Source: a virus
Virus record (IMG/VR): IMGVR_UViG_3300050821_002455
Coordinates: 1-27,098 of that record
Direction: 5' to 3' (one strand)
DNA length: 27,098 nucleotides
Part shown: positions 5,155 to 27,098 of the stretch, piece by piece
Position numbering within the stretch: position 1 is the stretch's first letter
How the letters are laid out: the number at the start of each line of letters is the position of its first letter
Program-made: the position numbers and the translations under genes
The notes under the pieces: generated by a model
Seen by the model: the letters and a program-made list of their open reading frames with translations, nothing else
Databases searched by the model: none
Told to the model about the DNA's origin: nothing

Positions 5155-8100
5155 CTAACCTTCCGTATGGACCGACCCAAAGAGCGAGTATGTCAAAAGT
5201 TCGTTAGCCTGGTTCTCTTCCGGCCACGCGAAGTTCAGCATGAGGTGCCGCATCCACGCCGGAGTTTCCAGTTGGTCAAAGTACCAGCGGTCAGCATAGA
5301 GGCTTTGACTGCTTTCCAGGTAAGGAGGATCGTTTACTTTGATTTGCAGGTTCTCAAATGTCCCACTGATTTCGTCTGCCAGAATCCCGATTGTTGGACG
5401 ACTGCCAACTGCCGTGCATTCTGAGGTTACGGAGACAACTTCTGCGCACTGGTTGGGTTGGGCCAGAACTATACTTCCTATAATCGTGTTTGCCGGAAAT
5501 GGTGTGCCGTTGTCCGCATTCGTAGTCAAATCCCTGAACAAGATTGGGCCACTCATTGCAGGGCCGATTAGCAACTGCCGGACTCCTGGCGAAGTCTCGA
5601 CCGACTTAACGCACTTGCATCCACCCACGATGTTAGCTTTCGTACACCACGCATAACCCGTTTCTGGAGGCGACAAGAGAGCGAGTCTATACCAACCTGT
5701 AGAGCCGTCCGCCACGTAAAATCCCTGATCTATGCCAAATGAATGCCATGTCACATAAGAGCCGGGAGCACTAAAGGCTTGGAGTAAATTTGCAATGGGA
5801 ATTCCTGTGTACTGCACTCCGGAGGCGGGGTCTTGTATCTCGTTTGTGGAGTCACTGGCGAAGATGAATGGCGTGCTGCCATTAACCGCGAATGCGTTCG
5901 GAGAGAGAATCCCGGTCTGATCGAGAAACAATATCGGGGCAAGCGGATTCCCGTTGTTATCTAGCCCAGAACTTAGCCAGATTGAGGAATTCGTGTAGAT
6001 AAACAGCCCCGCCGCTGAAGGCCAATTCACTACAGGCGTAGACGGCATCTGGAAGAAATTCTCGGCAGACCATGAATCCACTCCCACGCCAACTTCTTCT
6101 CCTGAAGTCTGGGAATAGACTACAAACTCATCCGAGATGCCAAAGATTCTTCCGAGATGGTAAGTCAGGCCAATAAGATTTGTGGGCGGAGGGGCGTTTG
6201 TGCCTGTCAAGTCTGGAGAAATCAATTCATTCAGAATGCTCAATGGATTTGGGGGGTCTGGAGAAGTATCAACATAAGACCAACTGCCTCCATTGGCAGG
6301 CGCGGGAATAGAAGTCAATCGAAAAGGAACTGAACTGCCCTGCACGGAGCGGTAGATGTTGATGATATCCGAAAAGTCTGTGGCCCACTTCGGATCGCCA
6401 TTGCCACTAATTGAGATTGCTGAATTTGCAGCTTCCAGTATGGGCACGGAAAGAGGGGACGCGGTGCCTTCGTGATTCGTGATGCTATCCCCAAAACTAT
6501 AGGCGTAGACCCATGTTCCTGTGTTTGCAACTCCTGCCGGACCTCCATTGGTCCACTGCAATCCGCTGGTTTCCGTTGTAATCAAACCTGCCTGCTCGAC
6601 GCTGCTTGCCGTGGCCCAAGTAGGAGGAGTTGATGCGCTCGCGCCTGCAACGCTGACGGCCTGAATGAATCCTGACCCACCGCCCGGACTCACCGCATCG
6701 TCAATGCTTGAAATGTTCGTTACAATCTGGCTGTCTCCTACATTCCCAGCAGTGTTATAGGTTGGCGATGCACTTCCAGAACTGGTGCGCGTGATTTGAT
6801 AACCAGCATTGGTCCAGATTACGTTCCCGTCTGTCGTGGTTCCCCCTAAACCACTGGCCCACGCAATGCTCGCTGTCGCGGTAGATGAACTGGTTCCTGC
6901 CGTGGTGCAGACGAAAAACAAGAAATTTGTGATGTATTTGTACCCATAAACGGGAATATTGCCAGGCGTGCCGCCGCCATCAATCGGGCTACGAGTGCCG
7001 CCCTCATATCCGATGATGTATTTGGTCTGCGTAGTCACGGTCACGGCAATCCATTGCCCCACCGTGTAAACGGAAGAGGTTGCTCTGGTTCCCGTCCCTT
7101 GGCATGTCCACGTTGCCGACCCATCTGTGGTCGTGTGCCCAACAACCGTGGAAAATGAAGGCACGCTGCTGTGGGTTGTCCCAACGACCGTCAATAGTTG
7201 GATGTTTCCATTTGGATCGAGAATGATGGCGTTATTCGTTATCCCGGGAACTGCCGGCCACCAGTAAGTGCTCGCTACCCAAGCATTTCCCAGGGGGGCA
7301 AAAACATTAGATACCGAAGGCGCGACCGTGGCGGCAGGGATACCCCAATCTCTTACCGAATAGCCTTTGAATACCCAAGCGACACTGCCATCAAGAATGA
7401 CAGTAGTTGTTTGAACCAATGTCGCGTTCCCTGTATCGGCAGTCGCCGAATAGGCCGGATGAGAAAAAAACGCTTTGAAGCTATTGGCTGATAAGACTTG
7501 ATGAATAGTCAGCGTATTTCCGTTGAACCAAGTCGCGTACACCAAATTCGACATTACATAGGCTTGTCCTACAGCGAGGGCGGGCGAGGGACTTCCAGAA
7601 ACATTGATCACCGCACCCGCCGTACCAAAGCCTCCCACAATCGAAGTTGAGACCACATTGAGAATATCTGAGCCGGGAGCAAAATTTGGCAAGGTGCTCC
7701 CAGAAGTTCCGGACTGGGACGAATTAAAGACCACGCCAGTATCGTCATCCGTACCGTAATTGGGCACACTGTAAGACGCAGTAAAACTATTAACGCCTAT
7801 TGTCGCAACGGTGACCGTAATGCCGTTCAACGAGGGGTTGCTCGTCATACCCACAAATGTCCATTGATCCCCTACGTTTACTGTCGCTCCGCCCGAATAA
7901 ACCACGGTGAGCACATCTGAAGCTACAGAGGTGGAAACTACCTGAAGGCTGAGGCCCTGCGACTGCCAGATATTGCCTGACGGGTCCAGAATGCAGTCGC
8001 CGAGAGCATAGACTTGATTCGCAACCCAAGCGGGAAACCACAGCCATTGCTTGGTATCAACTCCATCGCCCATGTAGAGCGTGTTGCCAACAGATTGAAA

Positions 8101-8520
8101 CGAGGTCTGTCCAGAACCAGCGCCTTTGCTAAGAAGCAGTGTTTTGGTATTTGGTCCCGTGCCGTCATAAACCGCTGTGGGCGTATCGACAATGACCCTG
8201 ATACTCTCAATGCCCGTATTCGGGTCAGTGATGCGGAACTCGTAGAATGTGTTCGGAGCTGTGAATGTTTGGCTGTTGTAAACCGACAGTCCGGGACGAC
8301 GTGCCCAGGTTAATTTTGGGGTCAGTTCGGTGTTCTGGCCTCCATACACGCTGTCGAATCTGGAACCGCTATAGAATTTCTCCAGCAAATACTCGACGGC
8401 ACCTTCACGCAGTGGTGAGCGATTCGTCCACAGGCCTGTGAAGAATCGGTTAATGTGTATAGGCGCATTTTTTTGGGGGCGATCAAGAGTCGCCCCTTGC
8501 GCTAAGAGGGCTGAAGGCAT
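5155..8520 (-). CDS. Probable tail nozzle/tube protein with nested repeat modules
   Basis: A 1121-aa structural protein with a strong SD (GGGAGGGG, 7 nt before ATG) directly after the stop of the 238-aa adaptor. The N-terminus (FFTGLWTNRSPLREGAVEYL then KLTWARRPGLSVYN, about 26-82) has the plan of podovirus tail-tube-B / DNA-stabilisation (gp12/gp10-type) proteins, which begin with a 'GG...R.PLR.G' and 'rRPG' segment and fold largely as beta-propellers. The final 450 residues (about 665-1121; for example LTYHLGRIFGISDEFVVYSQ and GLFIYTNSSIWLSSG) continue that beta-rich propeller-like part. Between them (about 170-665) lie four copies of a short repeat and two copies of a second repeat, listed separately. 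Order after two adaptor-like genes fits the T7-type adaptor-nozzle arrangement. Function is inferred from N-terminal pattern, size and order, with no database search. Confidence 0.65.
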   Translation of the reverse strand: MPSALLAQGATLDRPQKNAPIHINRFFTGLWTNRSPLREGAVEYLLEKFYSGSRFDSVYGGQNTELTPKLTWARRPGLSVYNSQTFTAPNTFYEFRITDPNTGIESIRVIVDTPTAVYDGTGPNTKTLLLSKGAGSGQTSFQSVGNTLYMGDGVDTKQWLWFPAWVANQVYALGDCILDPSGNIWQSQGLSLQVVSTSVASDVLTVVYSGGATVNVGDQWTFVGMTSNPSLNGITVTVATIGVNSFTASYSVPNYGTDDDTGVVFNSSQSGTSGSTLPNFAPGSDILNVVSTSIVGGFGTAGAVINVSGSPSPALAVGQAYVMSNLVYATWFNGNTLTIHQVLSANSFKAFFSHPAYSATADTGNATLVQTTTVILDGSVAWVFKGYSVRDWGIPAATVAPSVSNVFAPLGNAWVASTYWWPAVPGITNNAIILDPNGNIQLLTVVGTTHSSVPSFSTVVGHTTTDGSATWTCQGTGTRATSSVYTVGQWIAVTVTTQTKYIIGYEGGTRSPIDGGGTPGNIPVYGYKYITNFLFFVCTTAGTSSSTATASIAWASGLGGTTTDGNVIWTNAGYQITRTSSGSASPTYNTAGNVGDSQIVTNISSIDDAVSPGGGSGFIQAVSVAGASASTPPTWATASSVEQAGLITTETSGLQWTNGGPAGVANTGTWVYAYSFGDSITNHEGTASPLSVPILEAANSAISISGNGDPKWATDFSDIINIYRSVQGSSVPFRLTSIPAPANGGSWSYVDTSPDPPNPLSILNELISPDLTGTNAPPPTNLIGLTYHLGRIFGISDEFVVYSQTSGEEVGVGVDSWSAENFFQMPSTPVVNWPSAAGLFIYTNSSIWLSSGLDNNGNPLAPILFLDQTGILSPNAFAVNGSTPFIFASDSTNEIQDPASGVQYTGIPIANLLQAFSAPGSYVTWHSFGIDQGFYVADGSTGWYRLALLSPPETGYAWCTKANIVGGCKCVKSVETSPGVRQLLIGPAMSGPILFRDLTTNADNGTPFPANTIIGSIVLAQPNQCAEVVSVTSECTAVGSRPTIGILADEISGTFENLQIKVNDPPYLESSQSLYADRWYFDQLETPAWMRHLMLNFAWPEENQANELLTYSLFGSVHTEG
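6541..6672 (-). repeat. Module A copy 4, divergent
   Basis: Residues about 617-660: GFIQAVSVAGASASTPPTW, then GLITTETSGLQWTNGG. The TTDG core has changed to TTETS, but spacing and the final W-x-x-G(G) are kept. Confidence 0.45.
6799..6933 (-). repeat. Module A copy 3
   Basis: Residues about 530-574: LFFVCTTAGTSSST, AWASGLGG, then TTTDGNVIWTNAGY. The N-terminal 'DP.GN' part is replaced, but the second half matches copy 2 closely. Confidence 0.55.
7093..7230 (-). repeat. Module A copy 2, uninterrupted
   Basis: Residues about 431-476 of the 1121-aa protein: IILDPNGNIQLLTVVG, then SSVPSFS and GHTTTDGSATWTCQG. This is the cleanest copy and defines the module: 'ILDP.GNIQ....G.s..s.P.f....G.tTTDGs.tW...G', about 45 residues. 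Confidence 0.65.
7414..7662 (-). repeat. Module B copy 2 inserted in module A
   Basis: Residues about 287-369: LNVVSTSIVG, ALAVGQAYVMS, FNGNTLTIHQVL, NSFKAFFSH, then TADTGNATL. It aligns with module B copy 1 segment for segment (VVSTS; VGQ/VGD; NG.TLT; NSF.A; DTG), though overall identity is low, so the duplication is old or the copies were acquired separately. Confidence 0.55.
7729..7947 (-). repeat. Module B copy 1 inserted in module A
   Basis: Residues about 192-264. The pattern runs LQVVSTS, a VNVGDQWTF segment, LNGITVTVATI, NSFTASY, then TDDDTG. It resembles small beta-sandwich repeats of the 'VG..V.I.G.....yNG..tVt.V.s.tsFta......TG' kind common in phage tail and surface proteins. Its partner is residues 287-369. 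Confidence 0.55.
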
Positions 8521-23679: not shown

Positions 23680-23695
23680 ATAACCCGTGGGTTAT
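23680..23695 (-). promoter_or_regulatory. Hairpin spanning the stop of the GT-A-like gene
   Basis: ATAACCC, a 2-nt loop, and GGGTTAT form a near palindrome that includes the TAA stop of the glycosyltransferase gene. It is the first of two stems in this gap and could mark the 3' end of the cassette transcript, although no T tract follows. Confidence 0.35.
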
Positions 23696-24558
23696 ATGGT
23701 CATTGGAACGAACCCCAATTCAGCAGGAACTCCCGTGGGGCAGGGAAGCCCTACAGAGGCTTGGGCCGGAATATCAAGCCAGAAGTCCATCATTCCTGTA
23801 TGCGAAGTGACCGCCCAAGGTATGAGCCAAGTCTTAAATCCTAGAGTACGCGCATCGAGGCAAAACCTGTAATCCTCAGAATCATAATAGCGGGTTTCCT
23901 TGTTGATGCCGATCTGGAAGAAATCATAGGCAAAATCGCGGACTGGAACTTTTCCGCAGTTGATTTTCTCTCCTTCCATCAACACATAGCGGCGGTTCTC
24001 ATCTTCGGCAAACTTCAGGAATACGCCGCGTTTAATCAAAAGCAGCCCAGTGCCAAGTTGCTCGAATTCCACAGGCTCGCTGCAACTGAAAGATGGGGTG
24101 GGCTTGGAGGAATTTACGATTGGGCGGGAACCCATGCGGGAGAGGGCTATGGGATTCTCTACGCCGCGCTTTACCGCCTCGGCAACGTATTCCCAGTTTA
24201 CCGCCTTGCATGGATAGGGGAGGGCCACAATGTCTTTATCGAAGCCAATGGCCTGAAGGATGTTGGTGGGGTTGAAGCCGATATCTACGTCGAGGAAAAG
24301 CAGGTGAGTGAAGTCTTTGCCCTGCATATCGCCATCGAAGGCGCAGATATTGGCAAAGGCATTCCTAGCGCGGGGAATGAGGGATTCTGTCAGGGTTTCG
24401 GCAATTGTAAAGCGCACGCCTTTTTCTTTGAGGAGATCGGTCAGGCCGCGTAAGGCTCTTGCGTGCTGCACGTACACCTGCGATCCGTAACACGGGAGTG
24501 CAATAAGCAGATTCACGAGTCCGGCGTCTACGCTCGGCAGGGTCGCAGGGTCAAGCAT
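23692..24558 (-). CDS. GT-A-like glycosyltransferase
   Basis: A 288-aa protein. The opening strand (LVNLLIALPCYG about 14-25), THLLFLDVDIGF (about 84-95, with a DxD at 90-92 for metal and nucleotide-sugar), then SEDYRFCLDARTLGFKTWL (about 227-245, an ED plus a following helix typical of GT-A acceptor/base motifs) and SHTG (252-255; the His is a usual metal ligand) show the GT-A fold. Phages use such enzymes to decorate DNA, virions or host surface glycans; which one cannot be told here. SD GGAG lies about 10 nt before ATG, partly within a small hairpin. It is the last gene of a four-enzyme cassette. Confidence 0.72.
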   Translation of the reverse strand: MLDPATLPSVDAGLVNLLIALPCYGSQVYVQHARALRGLTDLLKEKGVRFTIAETLTESLIPRARNAFANICAFDGDMQGKDFTHLLFLDVDIGFNPTNILQAIGFDKDIVALPYPCKAVNWEYVAEAVKRGVENPIALSRMGSRPIVNSSKPTPSFSCSEPVEFEQLGTGLLLIKRGVFLKFAEDENRRYVLMEGEKINCGKVPVRDFAYDFFQIGINKETRYYDSEDYRFCLDARTLGFKTWLIPWAVTSHTGMMDFWLDIPAQASVGLPCPTGVPAELGFVPMTI

Positions 24559-24622: not shown

Positions 24623-25360
24623 TCAAATCGTTTTCTTCAGGACCGCACAAAAATATCCATTATGCCATTCGCCCTGGCTGTACCAGAGGTCTGAATCACC
24701 AAGTTCGACATTTACGAACACGTTGTGAAGCATGGCCAACTTCATTTTTCCGATGGCATTGAAAGTCCCCTGCTTTACGGCCTTCTGGTTCCAGTCATCC
24801 ACAATCAAAACGAACTCATCTTCCATGGCAGGCAGGGCCATGGTAATGCCGTCGAACTGGTCTTGCTCGGCATGAGGGCCGTCGTAAAAATACACGTTGA
24901 ATTTCCCTAAGCCTGCGAAATCTACCTTGCGAAAGTCTGCCTTGATGAGGCTCACGTCAGCTTCCGGGGTCCTGAACTTAATCAGGTTCTCCATGCACTC
25001 CTTTTCGGCGTTGATCGGGTACATCAGATACCTGCCAAAATCCTCGGAGCGGTCGTCTATGGAAACAGCTCTCACTTTGTTTCCGTTGATGGCAGAGCAC
25101 AGGCTAGAACCAGTCCATGTGCCCACTTCCAGATAACGAGCATCGGACATCGAGCCAATCAGTTCGTTGATGAAGATGCGATAGCGACCGCCAGAAAGCG
25201 CAGAAAACAGGCCGAATATGCGTGGGTCTATTTTGTACTCAGGACTAGGCACGCAGGCTTTACGCCATGCTTCCTTGACCAACGGGATCAGACTGCATTC
25301 TATTTCTACGCAGCCTTCGGGCTTGTTGTAGAACCCCTGCTGGACGCTGACTTCGCTCAT
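24623..25360 (-). CDS. Class I SAM-dependent methyltransferase
   Basis: A 245-aa enzyme. The ATG (25358-25360) overlaps the upstream stop as ATGA; a longer frame upstream has unnatural, Pro/Arg-rich sequence and would overlap the neighbour by 120 nt, so it is rejected. Motif I is YLEVGTWTGSSL (about 76-87). An acidic residue closing strand 2 (VSIDD, about 99-103) would bind the SAM ribose. VYFYDGPHAEQDQFDG (about 156-171) and LIVDDWN (about 185-191) belong to the Methyltransf_24-type family. Family members often methylate sugars or glycoconjugates. Position inside the glycan cassette suggests O-methylation of a sugar added by its neighbours. Substrate is inferred. Confidence 0.75.
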   Translation of the reverse strand: MSEVSVQQGFYNKPEGCVEIECSLIPLVKEAWRKACVPSPEYKIDPRIFGLFSALSGGRYRIFINELIGSMSDARYLEVGTWTGSSLCSAINGNKVRAVSIDDRSEDFGRYLMYPINAEKECMENLIKFRTPEADVSLIKADFRKVDFAGLGKFNVYFYDGPHAEQDQFDGITMALPAMEDEFVLIVDDWNQKAVKQGTFNAIGKMKLAMLHNVFVNVELGDSDLWYSQGEWHNGYFCAVLKKTI

Positions 25361-26256
25361 ACCATCACCGTGTGGTGAATCGCCACATGGTCGAGGATGT
25401 AGGTTGCCAATGCCTTCGTGGTTAGGTCTTTCTTCAGTTTGGCGTAAACATCCTGCATTAGGTCTTCCCAAATCCACCGTATCTGCCCGCTCTTGAACCA
25501 GTCACCATTCTTGTAGTCCAAGAGGTGCTTCGCCATTAGAAGTTCTTCTTTGGGCAGTTTGTGCATGATAAGCGGCGGGCAGTATTCCAGGTTCTCAAAA
25601 TACGGCATACAGTAGCAGGCCATGATCTCGTAATGCCGCAAGCAATCCCACCCAGCCTTCCTGCTCGTTCGGGCAAAAGCACTGGTCTGGTAATCGTGGT
25701 AGTAGTGCTTTTCGTCGGTGTAGATGTAGGTTCTCGCATCCCACGGATTCAGTGGCGCGAGAACTTTGTCCTTCATCTTTCCCGGCTGCAACTTTTCTTC
25801 TGGAATGGCGAATTGAATGGGGAGGGCATTGTCTCTGGGGTTGTGCAGTTCCCGCTTGAAGTACCAGTAGCCCCGATTAAGGAATTCCTTGAGTAACAGA
25901 GGATTGTCTTCGCCGTCGAGGAATACGATCTTGTCCTCCGGGTAGGAGTCCCGCACGATCTCCCGCACCTGGTCGAGATAGATATTTGATCGCTGCACAC
26001 TGCCGAAGACCACGAAATCGAAGAATTTTCTGCGAACTTTCATTTCAAGGTCAGAGCGGTCCACGGCGATATCATCCAACAATCCAAATAGCGTGAAGCC
26101 ATGGCCGTATAGGCTTTGAAGATCGTAGCCTTTGTACATATGCGACATTTTGGGGGCATCCACCACGTCAGCGCCGAAGTGCTGACGAAGACCATGCAGC
26201 GCCATATCTGCGAGATAGTCCGCTCCGTTGGCCTTGGTCAGATACAGAACTTTCAT
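25357..26256 (-). CDS. GT-B/CgeB-like glycosyltransferase
   Basis: A 299-aa protein starting MKVLYLTKANGADYLADMAL, a typical Rossmann entry of GT-B enzymes. FFDFVVFGSVQRSNIYLDQV and KIVFLDGEDNP follow. RHYEIMACYCMPYFENLEYC (about 207-226) is close to the C-terminal 'R.YEilA.G..P.f.n...' donor-sugar segment of CgeB-like and spore-coat-type glycosyltransferases. The gene overlaps both neighbours by ATGA and is therefore translationally coupled in the cassette. Donor and acceptor unknown; the second half of the donor site looks complete, so activity is plausible. Confidence 0.65.
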   Translation of the reverse strand: MKVLYLTKANGADYLADMALHGLRQHFGADVVDAPKMSHMYKGYDLQSLYGHGFTLFGLLDDIAVDRSDLEMKVRRKFFDFVVFGSVQRSNIYLDQVREIVRDSYPEDKIVFLDGEDNPLLLKEFLNRGYWYFKRELHNPRDNALPIQFAIPEEKLQPGKMKDKVLAPLNPWDARTYIYTDEKHYYHDYQTSAFARTSRKAGWDCLRHYEIMACYCMPYFENLEYCPPLIMHKLPKEELLMAKHLLDYKNGDWFKSGQIRWIWEDLMQDVYAKLKKDLTTKALATYILDHVAIHHTVMV

Positions 26257-27098
26257 TTCGTCATTACGCCCAAGCCGGGAGTGATCGAGAATTCCTCGTG
26301 CTTCAGGCCGTGCTCTGCGGCGAACTTAAAATACTCCTCGCCAATCGCTAGACTCGGGTAGTCGGACCCTGGCGAAGCCTCAAGGGTAAATCTCGGGTCT
26401 GGGGCAATGTCGTGGGACAGAATCAAGCCTCCAGGTTTTACCAGCGGGAACACCCTCTCTAGATCGGCCTTGTACCCTTCGCGTGTGTGCAAACCATCTA
26501 TCAGAACAATGTCGAGTCCTGAAGGCAGATGGAGTTTTGGATTCTGACTGTCGGACTTAATGAAGGCCCACTGTGGGTGTCCCGCGAACAGATGAGAGCA
26601 ATCCTGAATATCCACCGACATTACCAGACCGCCATTCCTTTGAACGCCAGACAGGAACGCGGAGGTAGATGCCCCATCGCGCACGCCAATCTCCAGCACG
26701 TTGCCGCGTGCATTCTTCTCCATCCACGGTAGAAAGTCTTTCATGTCGCCAAACAACATTCCTGCCTTATATCTGTTCTGCACTTTTTCCTGCGGCGTGA
26801 ATTCCGTTATGGCCGCATTCACCGTTGCCACGAAATCTCTTTGCTGAATCGACCGCAAGGCATTTTGCCCGAAGATTTCCAGCCCATCACTGCCGTCGAT
26901 CACTCGTTTGCAGGTTGCTACCAAATCGTCATAACGGCAGGCGATGAAGTGCAAATCCCGGTATTCTGAATCGTCGTCTGACAGCTCGCTCACCACACAT
27001 TTGCTGTTGGCAAGGTAATAGCTCATGCGGACGATCTCAAATAGCGTCCTGCCGTCATGGTGAACATTCAGGCATACTTTGGCGCGGGAGATCAGATT
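26253..27098 (-). CDS. Glycosyltransferase-methyltransferase fusion, N-terminus cut by window edge
   Basis: A MET at 27026 would give 257 aa, but the frame stays open to the right edge (at least 281 aa), and the extra residues (KVCLNVHHDGRTLFEIVR) read as the donor-binding end of a GT-B glycosyltransferase: 'AKI.LN.h.....fE.vR..y.lan...vvSE'. I therefore call one longer gene. Visible residues 1 to about 95 are the GT tail. From about residue 110 a class I methyltransferase follows: GNVLEIGVRDGAST (about 132-145), VMSVDIQD, VLIDGLHTREGYKADLE and PGGLILSHD. The methyltransferase is of the Methyltransf_24 type, as in the neighbour. A bifunctional enzyme would add a sugar and methylate it. The real start lies beyond the window. 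Confidence 0.75.
   Translation of the reverse strand, partial: NLISRAKVCLNVHHDGRTLFEIVRMSYYLANSKCVVSELSDDDSEYRDLHFIACRYDDLVATCKRVIDGSDGLEIFGQNALRSIQQRDFVATVNAAITEFTPQEKVQNRYKAGMLFGDMKDFLPWMEKNARGNVLEIGVRDGASTSAFLSGVQRNGGLVMSVDIQDCSHLFAGHPQWAFIKSDSQNPKLHLPSGLDIVLIDGLHTREGYKADLERVFPLVKPGGLILSHDIAPDPRFTLEASPGSDYPSLAIGEEYFKFAAEHGLKHEEFSITPGLGVMTK

Follow-up and report, generated by a model that had tools for sequence, protein, structure and literature searches.

Can a domain in a phage tail protein take up further domains in its own loops, and can the steps of such growth still be traced among living relatives? We address this question in the 27,098-base IMG/VR virus record IMGVR_UViG_3300050821_002455, analysed over its whole length (hereafter the window). 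An earlier note on this DNA, made by eye, had proposed that in the 1121-residue protein P0001 one copy of a repeat module, A1, is parted into three pieces by two similar modules, B1 and B2, while a nearby copy, A2, is continuous.

The interrupted module belongs to a tail nozzle protein

The minus strand of the window carries terminase (E 2.5e-42), head-tail connector/portal (E 4.6e-24), major head protein (E 1.4e-18) and tail genes, and the gene adjoining P0001 has a weak match to SU10_adaptor (E 0.0013, below the curated cut-off), so that the neighbourhood of portal, coat and adaptor genes is that of a nozzle gene. Searches of Pfam, PHROGs and NCBIfam gave no convincing match for P0001 or for module B. 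The AlphaFold model of the whole protein (pLDDT 81, pTM 0.68) matched the Pa223 nozzle (Z 25.7), the phicrAss001 muzzle (Z 25.4), P22 gp10 (Z 24.3), the SU10 nozzle (Z 23.2) and T7 gp12 (Z ~20); these whole-model matches (Z 19.6-25.7 over 409-548 residues) indicate a platform and a seven-bladed propeller, a fold taken from the matches and not from a count of blades. The name 'nozzle' that the earlier note had given the protein is therefore correct, since the model matches solved phage nozzles, though no sequence library names it so. Its description as surface-facing is consistent with the modelled nozzle fold, from which a position on the tail tip may be supposed. Because the 471 residues of P22 gp10 align end to end with the model, several hundred residues of P0001, chiefly 160-665, would be extra, inserted domains (Table 1), at a position comparable to that of the four nozzle domains of SU10 (PMC9509320).

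A search of the PDB with the nozzle sequence profile returned a single weak match, to GlmU, which is probably spurious, and did not pick up the SU10 nozzle. Elsewhere in the window, two Methyltransf_24 proteins are encoded near the structural genes (24626-25477, minus strand, E 4.9e-6; 26256-27026, minus strand, E 9.1e-16), with a gene at 23695-24558 that looks glycosyltransferase-like by eye.

Table 1. Features of the nozzle gene and of the neighbouring protein P0003 in the window.
Feature	Residues	Position	Strand	Evidence
Tail nozzle protein gene P0001	1121 aa	5155..8520	-	AlphaFold model and fold matches
N-terminal nozzle core	1-160	8041..8520	-	probable platform/first propeller blades, from fold matches
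A1 piece 1	163-188	7957..8034	-	alignment and anchor profile
B1, FCCH-like barrel in A1 loop 1	189-266	7723..7956	-	B profile (iterated on sequences including both B1 and B2) E 2.5e-20; fold match
A1 piece 2	267-284	7669..7722	-	alignment and anchor profile
B2, insert in A1 loop 2	285-372	7405..7668	-	B profile (same iteration) E 1.8e-18; homology to B1
A1 piece 3	373-388	7357..7404	-	alignment and profile; model strands 374-377, 380-387
A2, continuous	412-477	7090..7287	-	61.9 bits in anchor profile; Pam1 domain match
A3, diverged	483-574	6799..7074	-	sequence; extra residues in N-terminal half
A4, diverged	589-661	6538..6756	-	sequence and model strands
Rest of nozzle core	665-1121	5158..6528	-	most conserved part of P0001
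Single continuous module A in the neighbouring 356-aa protein P0003		9610..9756	-	sequence

Module A1 is divided by two homologous inserts

Four A modules (A1-A4) lie within residues ~160-665 of P0001. We scored A1 with a three-anchor profile built on 27 continuous A modules from other proteins, with the anchor spacing forced to 45-110 residues. The profile picked ILDPSGNIW (177), GTSGSTLPNF (271) and VILDGSVAW (374) with 36.2 bits. Among 1500 shuffles of the A1 stretch (mean -6.2, standard deviation 5.8) the best score was 18.9, providing evidence that A1 does lie in three pieces. These are the same three places, in the order found in A2, that had been picked out by eye. Of the span first proposed for the interrupted module (7360-8007), the 3' end was right to within a few residues; the 5' end was set about nine residues late, because A1 begins at a W-x5-Y motif near residue 163.

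The predicted fold of A2 resembles the receptor-binding domain of the Pam1 tailspike (7eea_C 586-642; rmsd 1.7 over 57 residues, 25% identity) with a Z of 7.6, in the range below 8 where a match may reflect merely a common arrangement. In sequence, PHROG 20658, named 'head decoration', matches module A in 11/18 copies (best E 1.7e-8); P0001 itself is a nozzle, unlike either namesake, and the PHROG name is probably misleading for it, because the match falls on the repeat module. The nozzle homologue gp19 of phage Tunturi_3 (XOB77200.1, L002 12001-15411) carries the label 'head decoration protein', which probably stems from its A repeat.

B1 and B2 are homologous as judged by alignment: their score of 82 exceeds all of 2000 shuffles (mean 32.5, standard deviation 6.3, maximum 68), and both match the B profile, so that the similarity first noticed by eye holds. 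We also modelled residues 118-481 by themselves. In this model, piece 1 of A1 and B1 have pLDDT mostly 92-98 and piece 3 of A1 76-94. The strands of the flanking A1 pieces (59-61, 66 onward, 257-260 and 263-270 in the numbering of this model) match those of A2 (315-317, 322-328, 346-349 and 352-359) in lengths and spacings, the two measures by which they were compared. B1 is modelled as a separate barrel, evidently able to fold independently, but B2 has pLDDT <50 in both AlphaFold models and its fold is not confidently predicted, since none of the other sequences has a counterpart that aligns with it. When fragments carrying inserts at comparable positions were added to the full-length alignment, they scattered and so gave the B2 model no support. 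The fold of B2, presumably a barrel, and the closure of A1 around it therefore rest on sequence.

The modelled barrel of B1 resembles that of the FCCH, the first catalytic cysteine half-domain, which is itself an inserted domain in ubiquitin E1 enzymes. Residues 72-151 of the model align with the FCCH of UBA6 with Z 10.1 (rmsd 2.0, 78 residues), UBA6 being also the first-ranked Foldseek match (E 3.8e-3), and with a chain of the FCWL1 head-to-tail interface with Z 8.7; matches to the isolated mouse FCCH 2v31 (Z 7.5) and to a barrel in the K1F (3ju4 424-507) and phi92 (4hiz) endosialidases (Z 7.8-7.9) are again in the range below 8 that may denote merely a common arrangement. At the sequence level the similarity is suggestive only, with Pfam E1_FCCH matching 2/21 B copies (best E 0.051) and a PDB sequence search linking B to E1 FCCH at E 0.6. 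The likeness to E1 is one of fold, with no ubiquitin chemistry implied for B1. In BFVD, one match of the whole nozzle model carries an E1 FCCH domain in its name, so phage nozzles with FCCH domains are not without precedent.

Relatives retain empty and half-filled sites

Used by itself as the query, the window protein matched nothing in viral or genome contigs. Searching with the Tunturi_3 homologue, which is 37% identical to the window protein, and then with an alignment, we collected ~85 homologues (cited by L numbers), mostly from IMG/VR contigs with a few from MAG contigs, the majority titled Acidobacteria, Sulfotelmatobacter or Terriglobia. Tunturi_3 is an isolate Acidobacteriota phage of podovirus morphology (PMC11924767). 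The virus of the window is thus a relative of phages that infect soil Acidobacteriota.

We classed the A1 site in 73 homologues, several assignments being made from motif spacing and by eye. Ten have no A1; in eight (Tunturi_3 gp19, L003, L004, L006, L043, L065, L071 and L092) A1 is uninterrupted, running in Tunturi_3 as IDPHGNLQQITTIGVSGGTTPTWSTT...TTDGSVVWTNRG; 50 have a B in loop 1 only (L014, L093, L013 and ~47 others); and one, L009, has a B with no A1. Three (L020, L033 and L080) carry a module A in loop 1 of another A, that is, A within A. The window alone has B in both loops. Among all other homologues (~85), a B in loop 2 of A1 is absent, every other row of the alignment showing a gap there. 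In keeping with such a series, the spacing between the LYxGDGVD motif and NWGI is stepped, at about 19, 88, 135, 165 and 240 residues. In L051 and L095, other domains, LamG-like by eye, occupy the A1 site.

The relatives lacking one or both inserts that the earlier note had suggested looking for thus exist at the orthologous place, and the junctions of their sites are exact. They uphold its claim that B entered the loops of a single A1 twice, though not as one episode. Here a phage tail protein has indeed grown by insertion of domains within domains, and its growth is traceable, because the relatives show the steps: no host domain, the host alone, one insert and two.

The two inserts probably differ in age, and A1+B1 may have moved between lineages

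In a tree made from the C-terminal 480 residues, the window groups with L093 and L013 (support 100), then with L014, L015 and L016. All five have B1 and none has B2, which is best explained by a gain of B2 on the window's own branch and by a much greater age for B1. Some of the eight relatives without B1 sit among B1-bearing ones, so in these B1 was probably lost or swapped.

The nearest relative also changes sharply along P0001. Over most of residues 1-160 and 640-1121 it is L093 (55-88% identity), whereas over residues 161-395 (window 7336-8040) it is L014 (52-72%), with L093 at only ~30-42%. On the simplest reading, this switch suggests that an A1+B1 cassette was exchanged between lineages by recombination, although part of the mosaic could reflect fast evolution instead.

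Other histories of the stretch have to be weighed against this one. If residues 163-388 were a single large domain, resembling A2 by chance or convergence, the lack of a confident B2 model would come as no surprise; yet the anchor statistics, the separate barrel of B1 and the uninterrupted A1 of relatives at the same place all speak against it, these relatives refuting it unless they are misassembled, and Tunturi_3 is an isolate genome. We give this account next to no credence. It is also very improbable that an ancestral A1 held both inserts and that B2, or both, were lost in all relatives. Inserts can be lost, as B1 probably was lost or swapped in some of the relatives without it, but the absence of B2 from the other homologues, the nearest three (L093, L013 and L014) included, would call for many independent clean losses, and parsimony disfavours this history. 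More attention is due to the idea that B1 was duplicated locally, the copy landing in the adjacent loop and diverging afterwards to become B2, unlikely as we hold this to be. The two share one module and a common start, VVSTS, and duplication is possible because an AU test does not reject B1 and B2 as sisters (p-AU 0.21). Against it, B1 of the window is 60-61% identical to B1 of L014 and 33% identical to B2, and the two B1 copies form a pair (support 99) that leaves B2 outside, so that B2 is probably no fresh copy of B1; as L014 lacks B2, either the duplication predates the B1 pair and was lost in L014, or B2 changed very fast. No close relative of B2 turned up when we scanned for one. Nor do its two junctions carry repeated words of at least 6 bases, for which reason no DNA insertion mechanism can be named. 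An old B1 and a later, separate gain of B2 is thus the history with which we proceed.

Insertions at other sites

FCCH-like modules, and insertions of other kinds, recur in these proteins. A B lies in the N-terminal nozzle core of L027, L040, L045, L055 and L090, between GTSG and PTW of another A in L009, and in the N-terminal part of A3 in L091. The equivalents of A3 in relatives are split by a PA14-like or a B domain, and a B lodged within such a PA14-like domain, which is in turn an insert in A3, is seen in L048 (254-333) and L063 (309-388). This nesting would amount to three levels, or four with the propeller, given a PA14 assignment that is weak (best E 0.0064, for Tunturi_3). In the neighbouring protein P0003, module A is continuous in 15 homologues, so a B-like insert in loop 2 of the A of the L027 homologue (E 6.9e-6) represents an independent loop-2 insertion.

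A variant insert, B', occurs at further sites in L004, L010, L012, L098 and others; a profile comparison with B gave just 7% probability over 31 columns, and B' is therefore not assigned to the B family. Two tandem B' copies make up part of Tunturi_3 gp7 (L002 1392-2330, annotated as tail fiber protein), whose gene comes directly after that of the major head protein. In the C-terminal part of the L007 nozzle, the segment between GVHKLLLGPG and GVLLKRDSNFFQDN holds an inserted ice-binding-like domain (Pfam PF11999, E 6.8e-34).

The earlier note was incomplete in that it missed the old age of B1 relative to B2, the apparent exchange of A1+B1, and the inserts at other sites, A within A among them. 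Taken more broadly, FCCH-like barrels might be a recurrent insertion module that, in this soil lineage, enters unrelated domains of podoviral tail machines (here the nozzle core, A modules, a PA14-like domain and the neighbouring 356-aa protein), with the loops of A1 as a receptacle for stepwise re-arming of the tail tip, a generalisation to which we give slightly less than an even chance. If it is true, every intermediate is still alive and the role of each added domain is directly testable.

A model for growth of the nozzle by loop insertion

Combining these results, we chart a model in which small beta modules, A1-A4, would be strung outward from the propeller core of a podovirus nozzle. 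Loop 1 of A1 would have received an FCCH-like barrel at an early date, and loop 2 would have gained its B only in the window's lineage. A1 would still close to its own fold around both inserts, because each B begins and ends at neighbouring points of a loop, and the two barrels may then be displayed side by side on what is probably the tail tip; the A1+B1 stretch would have been traded among lineages through recombination. The inserts would most likely serve host-surface contact, through glycans or a receptor, or tail-tip packing. We regard this explanation as a whole as highly probable.

Between the two uses the evidence is divided. A and B resemble binding domains in fold alone, and ligand binding by either would be by analogy. 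The A fold matches the receptor-binding domain of a tailspike, and B1 shares its fold with the K1F and phi92 barrel of a phage host-recognition protein, which in K1F endosialidase provides one of the three sites that bind polysialic acid (PMC12632334), though that barrel belongs to a tailspike enzyme and B1 to a nozzle known here from sequence and model. Moreover, the window and its nearest relative diverge most strongly over A1+B1, as would be expected after an exchange. These points count against the inserts being spacers or stabilisers of tail-tip hexamer packing with no binding role, the structure otherwise being as described. Yet FCCH folds are also found in E1 enzymes, which are proteins without sugar binding, and the SU10 nozzle domains make contact among themselves and with the tail fibres, and change their arrangement during ejection (PMC9509320). 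We consider a pure packing role a serious contender that nevertheless falls somewhat short of an even chance.

Comparison with known systems

Domain insertion as such is well known: architectures of the A1-B-A2 type (the letters being unrelated to our modules) make up about 20% of multidomain proteins, and recursive insertion can place several inserts in one host or nest domains up to six levels deep (PMC13114784). P0001 differs from recursive insertion in general in that its intermediates survive in relatives of one orthologous protein. A close parallel is the phicrAss001 muzzle gp44, likewise a propeller nozzle with inserted beta domains, one of them twice interrupted: an Ig-like domain carries insertions in loops E-F and G-H (PMC10172136). 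There, however, the two insertions jointly build one large new domain, whereas the inserts of P0001 are homologous to each other and remain separate, and its relatives include proteins with none and with one. The SU10 nozzle shares the fold and has about four small beta domains interrupting the propeller, namely four Ig-like nozzle domains between blades 2 and 3; the part of its description consulted mentions no nested insertion into a nozzle domain (PMC9509320), while P0001 has such inserts.

What is new here is the combination of two homologous inserts, apparently of different ages, in one host module, with the intermediates surviving at the orthologous place. Tail tips must alter what they touch yet keep the channel machinery intact, and the natural series at this one place (no A, A by itself, A holding one B or two, and A within A) shows that growth by loop insertion is possible without disturbing the core, loop 1 of module A being a site that accepts different domains. 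The family thereby offers a small, testable set of proteins for the role of each added domain.
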